The translations under genes and the position numbers were made by a program. Of a DNA stretch of 64,000 bases, positions 24,905-28,784 are shown piece by piece (position 1 is the stretch's first letter; every line of letters begins with the position of its first letter). Under the pieces are notes generated by a model that made no database searches, had not been told where the DNA came from, and saw only the letters and a program-made list of their open reading frames with translations. The stretch comes from Hoeflea sp. GTDB lineage: Bacteria > Pseudomonadota > Alphaproteobacteria > Rhizobiales > Rhizobiaceae. The stretch spans positions 725,580 to 789,579 of the forward strand of contig JAHRFE010000028.1 in assembly GCA_019084245.1 (NCBI GenBank), read 5' to 3'.

Positions 24905-24920
24905 TGGCACGGCTTTTGAT
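24905..24920 (+). promoter_or_regulatory. Sigma54-like promoter of the first glnK-amt unit
   Basis: TGGCACG-N4-TTGAT matches the RpoN -24/-12 layout (TGGCACG-N4-TTGCW) with full -24 and one mismatch (GA for GC) in the -12 part. It lies 88 bp before the glnK ATG, behind an AT-rich stretch that could bend. The same sequence precedes the second unit. Confidence 0.72.
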
Positions 24921-25008
24921 TCCTTTTTGGGCAGACGGGTGTTCGGCACGTGCCGGGCGCCAGTCATGAGAGGCGGCATGACCGCGGACAAAAAGGATGG
25001 GAAACCAG

Positions 25009-25347
25009 ATGAAAATTGTGATGGCCATCATCAAGCCGTTCAAGCTGGACGAAGTGCGTGAAGCGCTGACGGCTATCGGCATTCAGGGCCTGACCGTAAG
25101 CGAAGTCAAAGGCTACGGCAGGCAGAAGGGACATACGGAGATCTATCGCGGGACCGAATATGCGGTGAGCTTTCTGCCCAAGTTGAAGATCGAAATCGCG
25201 GTGAACTCGGATGCGGTGGACAAGGCGGTCGAGGCGATCGCGTCGTCGGCCAAGACCGGTCAGATCGGCGACGGCAAGATCTTCGTTTACTCGATTGACC
25301 AGGCCATGCGTATCCGCACCGGCGAAACCGACGCCGATGCGTTGTAA
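25009..25347 (+). CDS. glnK: PII nitrogen regulatory protein GlnK (first copy)
   Basis: The 112-residue PII protein binds ATP/ADP and 2-oxoglutarate and blocks the ammonium channel when nitrogen is plentiful. The T-loop holds Tyr51 in [10 protein letters not shown], the uridylylation site, and the B- and C-loop motifs are intact ([18 protein letters not shown]). ATG 25009 follows GGATGGGAAACC. An amt gene follows after 19 bp. It differs from the second copy at 11 of 112 positions by direct comparison. Confidence 0.96.
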
Positions 25348-25366
25348 GGCAACAGGAGACACACCC

Positions 25367-26725
25367 ATGACACCTCAGATGTCGCATAAATCAACGCTGC
25401 GGCTTGGCCTGATGGCAGCCGGCGCACTGGCGGCCTTCGCCGTTCCGGCCTTCGCCCAGGAGGCCACCGAAGCCGCGACCGAAGCTGCCGCCGCACCCGA
25501 ATTCGCGAGCGCCGCGGAAACGGCCTTCATCTTCAACACACTCCTGTTCCTGATGGGCGGCTTTCTCGTCATGTGGATGGCGGCTGGCTTCGCCATGCTG
25601 GAAGCCGGACTGGTTCGCTCCAAGAACGTCTCCATGCAGTGCCTCAAGAACATTGCGCTCTATTCCATCGCAGGCCTGATGTTCTGGGTCATCGGCTATT
25701 CGCTGATGTACACCAACGTCAATGGCGGCTATTTCGGCACGCCGCTGCCCTACAGCTGGCCTGACGCCGGCGCCGCCAATGAAGGCGACTATTCGGTGGC
25801 TTCCGACTGGTTCTTCCAGATGGTGTTCTGCGCAACCACCGCCTCGATCGTCTCGGGCACGCTGGCCGAGCGCATCAAGCTCTGGCCGTTCCTGATCTTC
25901 ACGGCGATCCTGACCGGCATTCTCTATCCGATCACCGGTTCGTGGCAGTGGGGCGCCGGCTGGCTCAGCGAAAGGGGCTTCTCCGACTTCGCCGGCTCGA
26001 CGCTGGTCCACTCGGTCGGTGGCTGGGCGGCGCTCGCCGGAGCGATCATCCTCGGCGCACGCAGGGGCAAGTACGGTGCTGACGGCAAGGTCCACCCGAT
26101 TCCGGGTTCGTCGATGGCTCTGGCGACGCTGGGCACCTTCATCCTGTGGCTCGGCTGGTTCGGCTTCAACGGCGCCTCGCAGCTGGCGCTGGGATCGAAC
26201 GGCGATGCGTCCGACATCTCCCGCATCTTCGCCAACACCAATCTCGCCGCCTGCGGCGGCGTGATCGCGGCGATGATCCTGACCCAGATCCTCTACAAGA
26301 AGGTCGATGTCACCATGGCCCTCAACGGCGCCCTCGCCGGCCTCGTCTCGATCACCGCCGAACCGCTGATGCCTTCGCCGTTCACGGCGATCATCATCGG
26401 CGCCATCGGCGGCGTCATCGTGGTCTTCGCGGTGCCGATGCTTGACAAGTTCAAGATCGACGATGTGGTTGGCGCGATTCCGGTTCACCTGCTGGCCGGC
26501 ATCTGGGGCACCCTCATCGTGCCGTTCTCGAACCCGGGCACGTCCTACGGGACACAGATCCTCGGTATCGTCTCGATCGGTATCTTTACCTTCGTGCTGT
26601 CCGGCGTGATCTGGTTCATCCTCAAGTCGACCGTCGGCATCCGTGCCTCGGAAGAGCAGGAAATGATGGGTATGGACATGGCTGAGGTCGGTGTCGAAGC
26701 CTATCCGGAATTCACAAAAGCCTGA
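25367..26725 (+). CDS. Ammonium transporter, divergent Amt type (first copy)
   Basis: The 452-residue inner-membrane channel has an N-terminal signal-like segment (LRLGLMAAGALAAFAVPAFA) and about 11 membrane helices. The twin-His pore is present: STLVHSVGGWAAL and GAIPVHLLAGIW. The segment MWMAAGFAMLEAGLVRSKN differs from the classic AmtB form GLALFYGGLVR of the second copy, so the two belong to different Amt subfamilies. It is co-transcribed with glnK, from which it is separated by 19 bp, and ends at a strong terminator. Confidence 0.95.
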   Translation: MTPQMSHKSTLRLGLMAAGALAAFAVPAFAQEATEAATEAAAAPEFASAAETAFIFNTLLFLMGGFLVMWMAAGFAMLEAGLVRSKNVSMQCLKNIALYSIAGLMFWVIGYSLMYTNVNGGYFGTPLPYSWPDAGAANEGDYSVASDWFFQMVFCATTASIVSGTLAERIKLWPFLIFTAILTGILYPITGSWQWGAGWLSERGFSDFAGSTLVHSVGGWAALAGAIILGARRGKYGADGKVHPIPGSSMALATLGTFILWLGWFGFNGASQLALGSNGDASDISRIFANTNLAACGGVIAAMILTQILYKKVDVTMALNGALAGLVSITAEPLMPSPFTAIIIGAIGGVIVVFAVPMLDKFKIDDVVGAIPVHLLAGIWGTLIVPFSNPGTSYGTQILGIVSIGIFTFVLSGVIWFILKSTVGIRASEEQEMMGMDMAEVGVEAYPEFTKA

Positions 26726-26769
26726 GGCTTTTAGAGAATCCCGTCGGGGTGGATCTCCATCCCTGCCTT

Positions 26770-26797
26770 GGGGCCCGGTCATGCCGGGCCCCATTTT
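26770..26797 (+). terminator. Rho-independent terminator after the first amt gene
   Basis: Perfect 9-bp stem GGGGCCCGG / CCGGGCCCC with loop TCATG is followed by ATTTTC. It lies 44 bp after the amt stop. Confidence 0.88.
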
Positions 26798-26879: not shown

Positions 26880-26974
26880 TTCAAGCCGGTCGAAATGCAC
26901 AAATAATACTCTGTCTGCTCCTGGTTCAGGCTTGTTGCCCGCTGCATCGGCTGATTCCGTGCGGCAAAGCCGCT

Positions 26975-26990
26975 TGGCACGGCACTTGAT
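26975..26990 (+). promoter_or_regulatory. Sigma54-like promoter of the second glnK-amt unit
   Basis: TGGCACG-N4-TTGAT lies 86 bp before the second glnK ATG, the same sequence and nearly the same spacing as in the first unit. The -12 motif has GA where GC is usual, in both copies. Confidence 0.72.
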
Positions 26991-27076
26991 AGGGACTGTG
27001 CGGGCTGGCGCCCGGCCTGGGTCGGACTGCCGGTCATGAGGGGCGGCATGGCCGCGGAACAAGGATCGGAAACCAG

Positions 27077-27415
27077 ATGAAAATCGTGATGGCCATCATC
27101 AAGCCGTTCAAGCTGGACGAAGTGCGTGAGGCGCTCACGTCTCTCGGTGTCGAGGGTCTGACCGTGAGTGAAGTCAAGGGCTACGGCAGGCAGAAGGGAC
27201 ATACGGAGATCTATCGCGGCGCCGAATATGCCGTGAGCTTCCTGCCCAAGCTGAAGATCGAGATCGCGGTCGCAACCGGCGCCGTCGACAAGACAGTGGA
27301 AGCGATCGCGGCGGCGGCCAAGACCGGCCAGATCGGCGACGGCAAGATCTTCGTTTACTCGATTGACCAAGCCATGCGGATCCGCACCGGCGAAACCGAC
27401 GCCGATGCGTTGTAA
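27077..27415 (+). CDS. glnK: PII nitrogen regulatory protein GlnK (second copy)
   Basis: The 112-residue PII protein is about 90% identical to the first copy, with Tyr51 in [10 protein letters not shown]. The differences cluster at residues 22-26 and 66-80, outside the T-loop. It is followed after 19 bp by a canonical amtB. The leader, ribosome site and downstream spacer are also nearly the same as in the first unit, pointing to duplication or gene conversion. Confidence 0.96.
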
Positions 27416-27434
27416 GGCAACAGGAGATACATCC

Positions 27435-28784
27435 ATGACACTTCAGATGTCACACACTTCCCCGCTGCGGCTTGGCCTGATCGCCGCCGGCGCGCTCACC
27501 ACCTTCACGCTTCCTGGCTTCGCCCAGGATGCAGCAGCCCCCGCTGTCGCAACCATCGACAAGGGCGACACCACCTTCATGCTGGTCTCGACCATCCTGG
27601 TGCTGCTGATGATCCTTCCGGGCCTGGCGCTGTTTTACGGCGGTCTGGTCCGCACCAAGAACATGCTTTCCGTTCTGATCCAGTGCACCCTGATCACGGC
27701 TCTCGTGATGGTGATCTGGGTGCTCTACGGCTATTCCTTCGCCTTTGGCGGTTCGGAAAGCGCCTTCTGGGGCGGAACCGCCAAGATGTTCCTGGCGGGT
27801 GTCACGCCTGCCAGCGAAGCCGCCACCTTCTCCGATGGCGTGATGATCCCGGAATATATCTTCATTGCCTTCCAGATGACCTTTGCCTGCATCACGCCGG
27901 CTCTGATCGTCGGCGCCTTTGCCGAGCGCGTCCGGTTCTCGGCGGTCATGCTGTTTGTGGCGCTGTGGGTAACCTTCGTCTATTTCCCGGTCGCCCACAT
28001 GGTGTGGGACGCCAACGGACTGTTGTTCAAGATGGGCGCGCTCGACTTTGCCGGTGGCACCGTCGTTCACATCAATGCCGGCATTGCCGGTCTCATCGGG
28101 GCGATCATGATCGGCAAGCGCACCGGGTTCGGCCGCGACATGATGGCGCCGCACTCGATGACGCTGACCATGGTGGGCGCATGCCTTCTGTGGTTCGGCT
28201 GGTTCGGCTTCAATGCCGGATCGAATCTCGAGGCCAATGGCGGCGCGGCCCTTGCGATGATCAACACCTTTACCGCGACCGCAGGCGCCATCCTGGCCTG
28301 GACGGCGATCGAAACCCTGCACCGCGGCAAGGCCTCGCTGCTGGGCGCCGTGTCCGGCATGATCGCCGGCCTGGTTGCCGTCACCCCGGCCGCCGGCTTT
28401 GCCGGCCCGGTGGGCGCCATCGCCCTCGGCGCGGTTGCATCGGGCCTCTGCTACTATTTTGTCGCCGTCGTCAAAAACAAGTTCGGCTATGACGATACGG
28501 CCGATGTGTTCGGCATCCATGGCATCGGCGGCATTGTTGGCGCGCTTGGAACAGCGGTGGTCAACATGCCGGGACTGGGCGGCGCCGGCGGCGAGGACTA
28601 CGCGGTCGGCTCCCAGCTGATGATCCAGGCTTCCGCCGTGGGCATCACCATCCTGTGGTGCGGTATCCTCTCGATTGTCCTTTACAAGATCGTCGACATG
28701 ACCATCGGCCTGCGTGCCAGCGTCGAAGACGAACGCCAGGGTCTTGATCTGGCTTCGCACGGCGAAGCTGCCTATCACGGCTGA
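27435..28784 (+). CDS. amtB: Ammonium transporter AmtB (canonical type)
   Basis: The 449-residue channel has an N-terminal signal-like segment similar to that of the first Amt, then the canonical AmtB core: LPGLALFYGGLVRTKNMLSV, the first pore His in GTVVHINAG and the second in DVFGIHGIGGIVGAL. The C-terminal tail (RASVEDERQGLDL) is the conserved cytoplasmic region that contacts GlnK. It is blocked by GlnK in high ammonium, which is known from E. coli and inferred here. Confidence 0.97.
   Translation: MTLQMSHTSPLRLGLIAAGALTTFTLPGFAQDAAAPAVATIDKGDTTFMLVSTILVLLMILPGLALFYGGLVRTKNMLSVLIQCTLITALVMVIWVLYGYSFAFGGSESAFWGGTAKMFLAGVTPASEAATFSDGVMIPEYIFIAFQMTFACITPALIVGAFAERVRFSAVMLFVALWVTFVYFPVAHMVWDANGLLFKMGALDFAGGTVVHINAGIAGLIGAIMIGKRTGFGRDMMAPHSMTLTMVGACLLWFGWFGFNAGSNLEANGGAALAMINTFTATAGAILAWTAIETLHRGKASLLGAVSGMIAGLVAVTPAAGFAGPVGAIALGAVASGLCYYFVAVVKNKFGYDDTADVFGIHGIGGIVGALGTAVVNMPGLGGAGGEDYAVGSQLMIQASAVGITILWCGILSIVLYKIVDMTIGLRASVEDERQGLDLASHGEAAYHG

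Follow-up and report, generated by a model that had tools for sequence, protein, structure and literature searches.

Concerted evolution of glnK and the amt signal-peptide codons in two adjacent glnK-amt units of Hoeflea, with unlike ammonium transporters behind them

Introduction

Two ammonium transporter genes, each preceded by its own copy of glnK, the gene of a PII protein, are located side by side in Hoeflea sp. (GCA_019084245.1, here genome G000), and the question raised by this locus is how two regulators that are so alike came to stand in front of two transporters that are so different. The window, which is the whole stretch of DNA analysed, covers 64,000 nt of contig JAHRFE010000028.1 (725,580-789,579, forward strand), and all coordinates below refer to it. 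Between 23899 and 31591 the gene order is tesB, glnK1, amtM, glnK2, an amtB-like gene and ftsK, with these genes and all other features described here on the + strand. The genome contains two Amt genes, both at this tesB-ftsK locus, and four PII-family genes, two of which are at the locus. An earlier note on this DNA had proposed a mosaic, made by gene conversion or by recombination that placed a second transporter behind a copied control and signal block. Based on the comparison of the genus, a block of glnK and the signal codons has very probably been homogenised recurrently by gene conversion, leaving the Amt bodies and the upstream regions unlike.

Results

The genes glnK1 (25009..25347) and glnK2 (27077..27415) each encode a protein of 112 aa matching PF00543 (E 2e-31 and 9.6e-31, respectively). 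They share 88.7-88.8% identity in DNA and 90.2% in protein, with 11 of the 112 residues differing, and the spacer between glnK and amt is 19 bp in both units. When the units were compared in 60-bp windows, the identity climbed along the leader (0.62, 0.66, 0.84, 0.93) and stood at 0.80-0.97 across the leader end, glnK, the spacer and the amt start, apart from a dip to 0.72-0.78 in the middle of glnK. It dropped to 0.62, then 0.51, where the signal codons end. These are codons 1-30 of amtM (25367..25456), with the signal peptides identified by eye, without a predictor; their end was taken as the 3' end of the homogenised block, both from this profile and from the tract ends in five relatives. 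The windows in the Amt bodies gave 0.38-0.65, near 0.5, with the exception of one patch of 0.76-0.78, and those upstream of the promoter 0.28-0.40 (windows with at least 47 aligned bases). The divergence is therefore unequal along the unit, equal divergence having been set beforehand as the sign that there is no mosaic. The profile and the alignments bear out the similar leader, the glnK of about 90% identity, the 19-bp spacer and the similar signal segment that had been described, as well as the end of the similarity near the end of the signal peptide, beyond which the identity is about 0.5. The description of the control part as 'near-identical' was too strong for the window genome, where the glnK copies are 89% identical.

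The transporters following this block are strongly diverged and of different subfamilies, as had been claimed. AmtM (25367..26725) scored 629.6 bits with TIGR03644, the 'marine' subtype, which is above the cut-off of 514. The second transporter (27435..28784), whose first codons resemble those of amtM in the alignment, failed this model (174.3 bits) and passed TIGR00836 (425.3 bits; cut-off 343.3). It is named AmtB-like because it did not reach the curated cut-off of the AmtB equivalog PRK10666 (475.9 against 657 bits). The solved structures closest to it by sequence are AmtB entries. For AmtM, these are far behind (3e-32 and weaker), and the closest structures are 8qj3, 8qpf (E 2e-71) and 6eu6 (1.4e-65), the last of which we take to be the Amt domain of a sensor kinase. 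All seven residues that we take to be those of the Amt/Mep pore (F107, W148, D160, H168, F215, S219 and H318 in E. coli numbering) are identical in both proteins, therefore both are probably channels. AmtM has a C-terminal tail without HGE and Gly at the position of AmtB D313. Sister Amts would speak against a mosaic; the two fall in different families, and each groups with its orthologs.

A sigma54-type promoter-like element, TGGCACG-N4-TTGAT, was correctly reported for both units, where it matches exactly at 24905..24920 and 26975..26990. With one mismatch permitted, the window has four matches where 0.43 would be expected; exact matches number three in the whole 4.82 Mb genome. The third of these is outside the window, at G000:C40:715566-715581. 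The shorter form TGGCACG-N4-TTG was found in 23 of 23 genus leaders tested, with the element ending 87-92 bp before glnK in every one. Promoters for sigma54 (RpoN) are marked by GG at -24 and GC at -12; both window elements contain TGGCACG, with TTGA rather than TTGC as the -12 element, and both putative promoters may be under nitrogen control. The inclusion of the promoter in the copied block was not upheld. The upstream regions (-165 to -75) are similar by position and not within the genome (identity 0.584 between unit 1 regions, 0.626 between unit 2 regions and 0.394 between the two units of one genome). The promoter-like elements also fall outside the copied block because the tracts delimited in five genomes start 40-79 bp before glnK, nearer to it than the end of the element. 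The two promoters are therefore like elements within otherwise dissimilar upstream regions.

Both units were found in nine of the 18 genomes sampled from the genus: seven have them intact on one contig, G400 has them across two contigs, and in G402 the second amt is cut by the contig end. In six of the nine (G394, G342, G046, G403, G258 and G395), the glnK copies of one genome are sisters (support 78-100 at non-root nodes) and their flanks are orthologous by position, which is the pattern of concerted evolution; it is not seen in the window's clade. In the trees, the AmtM bodies group with their genus orthologs, as do all AmtB bodies but the one of G258. In approximately unbiased (AU) tests, clustering the copies by position cost a log-likelihood difference (dlnL) of 351.5 for all 18 units (p 2.3e-38). 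It also failed when only the four double genomes of at most 10 contigs were used (dlnL 133.6, p 9.8e-9; 103.1 with glnK alone). Identity at third codon positions of glnK within a genome was 0.97-1.00 in G394, G342, G046 and G258, 0.87 in a fifth genome and 0.73-0.78 in the other four, compared with between-species means of 0.783 for unit 1 (maximum 0.955) and 0.727 for unit 2 (maximum 0.839).

PII proteins are strongly conserved, and an old duplication followed by strong purifying selection on glnK and the signal, with no conversion, could also keep the copies alike; the clustering by position in the window's clade is what it would predict. This is highly improbable as an explanation, given the nearly or fully identical third positions within four genomes, the homogenisation of the spacer and part of the leader as well, and the double loci of four other genera, which are far less alike under a similar protein constraint. 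For the whole genus the AU test rules it out; it could apply to the time since the window's clade split off.

Tracts of homogenised sequence were delimited by a 75% rule in 20-column windows. Five of the eight genomes measured have tracts of 461-547 columns, whose 5' ends relative to glnK are at -79 (G394), -44 (G342), -46 (G046), -40 (G403) and -52 (G258), and whose 3' ends are at amt codons 33, 33, 37, 20 and 45, respectively. As the 5' ends differ, separate events are suggested. The likeness could in principle also come from independent recent tandem duplications of glnK and the signal in each lineage, each fused to an AmtB; the high identity within genomes would follow from them. In other genera the glnKs cluster genus by genus and the two units can stand in another order (g58), so that tandems perhaps arose repeatedly in the family. 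Repeated duplication is nevertheless very unlikely here, as almost the same fusion point would be needed many times. In addition, the AmtB bodies of the genus, save those of G258 and G396, all lie to one side of a split with full support, and the regions upstream of unit 2 resemble one another between genomes (0.626) more than they do unit 1 of their own genome (0.394), which makes unit 2 old within the genus.

Among 394 genomes of the family, 113 matched TIGR03644 with an E value of at most 1e-140. An AmtM-seeded sample gave 99 loci from 106 genomes outside the genus, a seeding that would miss tandems of two AmtB genes. An AmtB-seeded sample comprised 40 loci outside the genus, chosen by hand among the highest-ranking Pfam Amt matches; none of their genomes had such a TIGR03644 match. 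The arrangement tesB-glnK-amtM-ftsK accounted for 42 of the 99 loci and tesB-glnK-amtB-ftsK for 29 of the 40, and TesB was found in 87 and 37 loci, respectively. These single-unit loci have the flanks and order of the window, with one glnK-amt unit instead of two. In the AmtM-seeded sample an AmtB-like gene followed amtM without a second glnK in 10 loci, and another kind of Amt was there in 14; in the AmtB-seeded sample another Amt took that place in 4. Two glnK-amt units were present in 10 of the 99 loci (six with amtM first, four with amtB first). In these ten, from four other genera, the glnK copies are 75.5-85.8% identical in DNA, and their signal peptides have little in common (protein identity 13-52%). 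The lower likeness favours a special state of the window genus, though not cleanly.

Several observations weigh against recurrent conversion, or narrow it. The glnK copies of g58 form one group (support 90), and the two copies in the sole g15 genome are sisters (100). Because the glnKs of other genera also group by genus, the pattern is in part not peculiar to the window genus, and there may have been older duplication or conversion within those genera. In the window genome, G400 and G402 the copies cluster by position (support 92 and 98), and the free and constrained trees tie for these three. The tract walk halted after 68-177 columns in three of the eight genomes (G395, G402 and the window genome). 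Within the window genome the glnK identity of 0.887 is below the between-species mean for unit 1 of 0.908, and the 18-unit AU tree places unit 1 of G402 weakly (72) with the G258 pair. The completely identical glnKs of G342 (about 70 contigs) and G258 (about 50 contigs) could be repeats copied by the assembler, a worry that is smaller for G046 (3 contigs, glnK 99.1%) and G394 (10 contigs, 99.7%). The direction of conversion is only weakly indicated, with unit 1 as the possible usual donor, and scoring the signal peptides against outgroups to fix the donor gave no clear answer.

Within the window's clade, unit 1 mostly resembles the unit 1 copies of the sister genomes more than unit 2 of its own genome. 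This, together with the clustering by position and the tie, means that no conversion is seen in these three genomes since their ancestor, and the 89% identity in the window would be the remainder of an older homogenisation. The proposed mosaic by gene conversion is therefore supported for the genus, in which glnK and the signal evolve in concert and the Amt bodies do not, and for the window genome as an old event and not a recent one.

In the proposed mechanism, two adjacent operons would each have their own sigma54-type promoter element and encode a GlnK and an ammonium channel, AmtM or the AmtB-like protein. Some 0.5 kb of sequence would be repeatedly homogenised between them, presumably by gene conversion. 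This block would begin about 40-80 bp before glnK, extend roughly to where the signal codons end, and stop where the two amt genes cease to match at the DNA level. Under ample nitrogen, each GlnK may then be able to bind to and shut either of the channels, and two different channels could in this way answer to one PII signal. The T-loop of both window GlnKs contains (T/A)EYAVSF and includes Tyr51, which we take to be a functionally important PII residue. Within the genus, the loop is identical in 12 of 12 AmtM-linked GlnKs and in 9 of 12 AmtB-linked ones. Of the three that deviate, GlnK2 of the window and the one of G400 have T49A, and the third is the GlnK on a suspected chimeric G402 contig. 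With T-loops this nearly identical, either PII could serve both channels, and GlnK1 and GlnK2 could be interchangeable or mixed in trimers, as judged from sequence. Across the family, no GlnK position strongly separated the AmtM-linked from the AmtB-linked proteins (largest frequency difference 0.46).

The almost invariant T-loop could also mean that selection for two like PIIs, through dosage or the avoidance of mismatched heterotrimers, is the cause and conversion merely its tool. Several genes known to evolve in concert, including glnB, form homopolymers, according to the part of PMC6053082 available, and this would fit. Selection of this kind appears doubtful, as the GlnKs that stand next to the two transporters in four other genera are more diverged, and those of the window's clade have been free to diverge as well.

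Some relatives suggest loss of a unit, possibly through crossover between the glnK copies, and the arrival of a different AmtB body behind the resident block. G203, which has AmtB only, has an upstream region of the unit 1 type (0.595 against 0.392), as expected if such a crossover deleted amtM. In G303, with AmtM only, two short stretches ahead of ftsK match AmtB (each with E 3e-4), which is suggestive of a lost AmtB unit. The AmtB body of G258 is nearer to that of G396 (mostly 0.83-0.93) than to those of three other members tested (mostly 0.65-0.88). Its promoter-proximal and ftsK-side flanks are nearer to the other members, and the glnK and signal in front of it agree with unit 1 of the same genome. 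The suggestion of a second transporter placed behind a copied block fits this one relative, which has a G396-like AmtB body behind its resident block. It is possible, and proposed here tentatively, that the tandem glnK is a site of transporter exchange, where conversion keeps the block, crossover deletes a unit and other bodies recombine behind the block. This would explain why related species have AmtM, AmtB or both at the tesB-ftsK locus.

An Amt was found in 16 of the 18 genus genomes and none in G397 and G398. Besides the nine double genomes, three have AmtM only (G374, G139 and G303), two have AmtB only (G203 and G396), and two (G399 and G401) have AmtB on a contig ending just before it. 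Drafts break between amtM and amtB or close to amtB at loci L037, L039, L040, L043 and L047. Copy number in drafts is unreliable because assemblies break there, as expected for near-identical repeats. A third unit on G402 contig C3 (L042, about 1-1280) was rejected, as the contig is probably chimeric: its porin-like end, its glnK (66%) and its start of amtB all appear foreign, and they are followed by the native amtB and ftsK from about where contig C109 (L043) ends. In G396 (L038, L227) glnK-amtB adjoins ftsK, no tesB was found upstream in the fetched stretch, and the signal peptide and the glnK stop codon differ.

The locus is flanked on the left by a tesB-like acyl-CoA thioesterase gene (23899..24780; PF02551, PF13622) and on the right by ftsK (28955..31591; PF01580). 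A consensus scan marked a GC-rich, terminator-like hairpin with a T tail 3' of amtM (26769..26793). The call is weak because four such sites were found against 3.1 in shuffles. Similar sequences are also found 3' of amtM in the three AmtM-only genomes. A candidate hairpin in the leader was seen by eye only. An Rfam scan of 24700-29000 gave seven weak matches, all under the gathering score (best 22.9 against 41 bits), therefore no known leader RNA was found at the locus.

Discussion

The genus can be regarded as a natural replicate experiment, in which two regulators were repeatedly reset near identity beside two distinct channels. The contrast set is provided by four sampled genera in which copies of the same genes drifted much further apart. 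The comparison can thus be used to test whether PII copies that stand with different Amt channels become specialised once they are free to do so. The exchange proposed above would also offer a way to replace a membrane transporter without losing its regulator and targeting signal.

In the open PMC literature, judged from titles and the starts of abstracts, no description of gene conversion affecting glnK-amt units in bacteria was found, and no paper joining concerted evolution, PII and an ammonium transporter. The available main text of the review PMC10433425 contains neither 'duplicat' nor 'operon'.

Haloferax mediterranei has glnK1/amtB1 and glnK2/amtB2, with GlnKs of 84% identity and transporters of 73% in DNA and 52% in protein (PMC3831643, available in part). 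Like the window, it has two linked pairs in which the GlnKs are more alike than the transporters, but its transporters are less diverged than those of the window, and no conversion analysis was found in the part of that article available.

Concerted evolution in prokaryotes has been described for glnB (PII) of Methanococcales, tuf, amo, psbA and others (PMC6053082). As far as the accessible part of that work goes, these cases resemble the units of the genus in that paralogs within a genome are closer than orthologs through recurrent conversion, PII included. They differ in that the tract in the genus spans the leader and a whole gene and ends inside the next gene, near the end of the signal peptide. 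Concerted evolution of PII is already known, and it is the sub-operon form found here that looks new.

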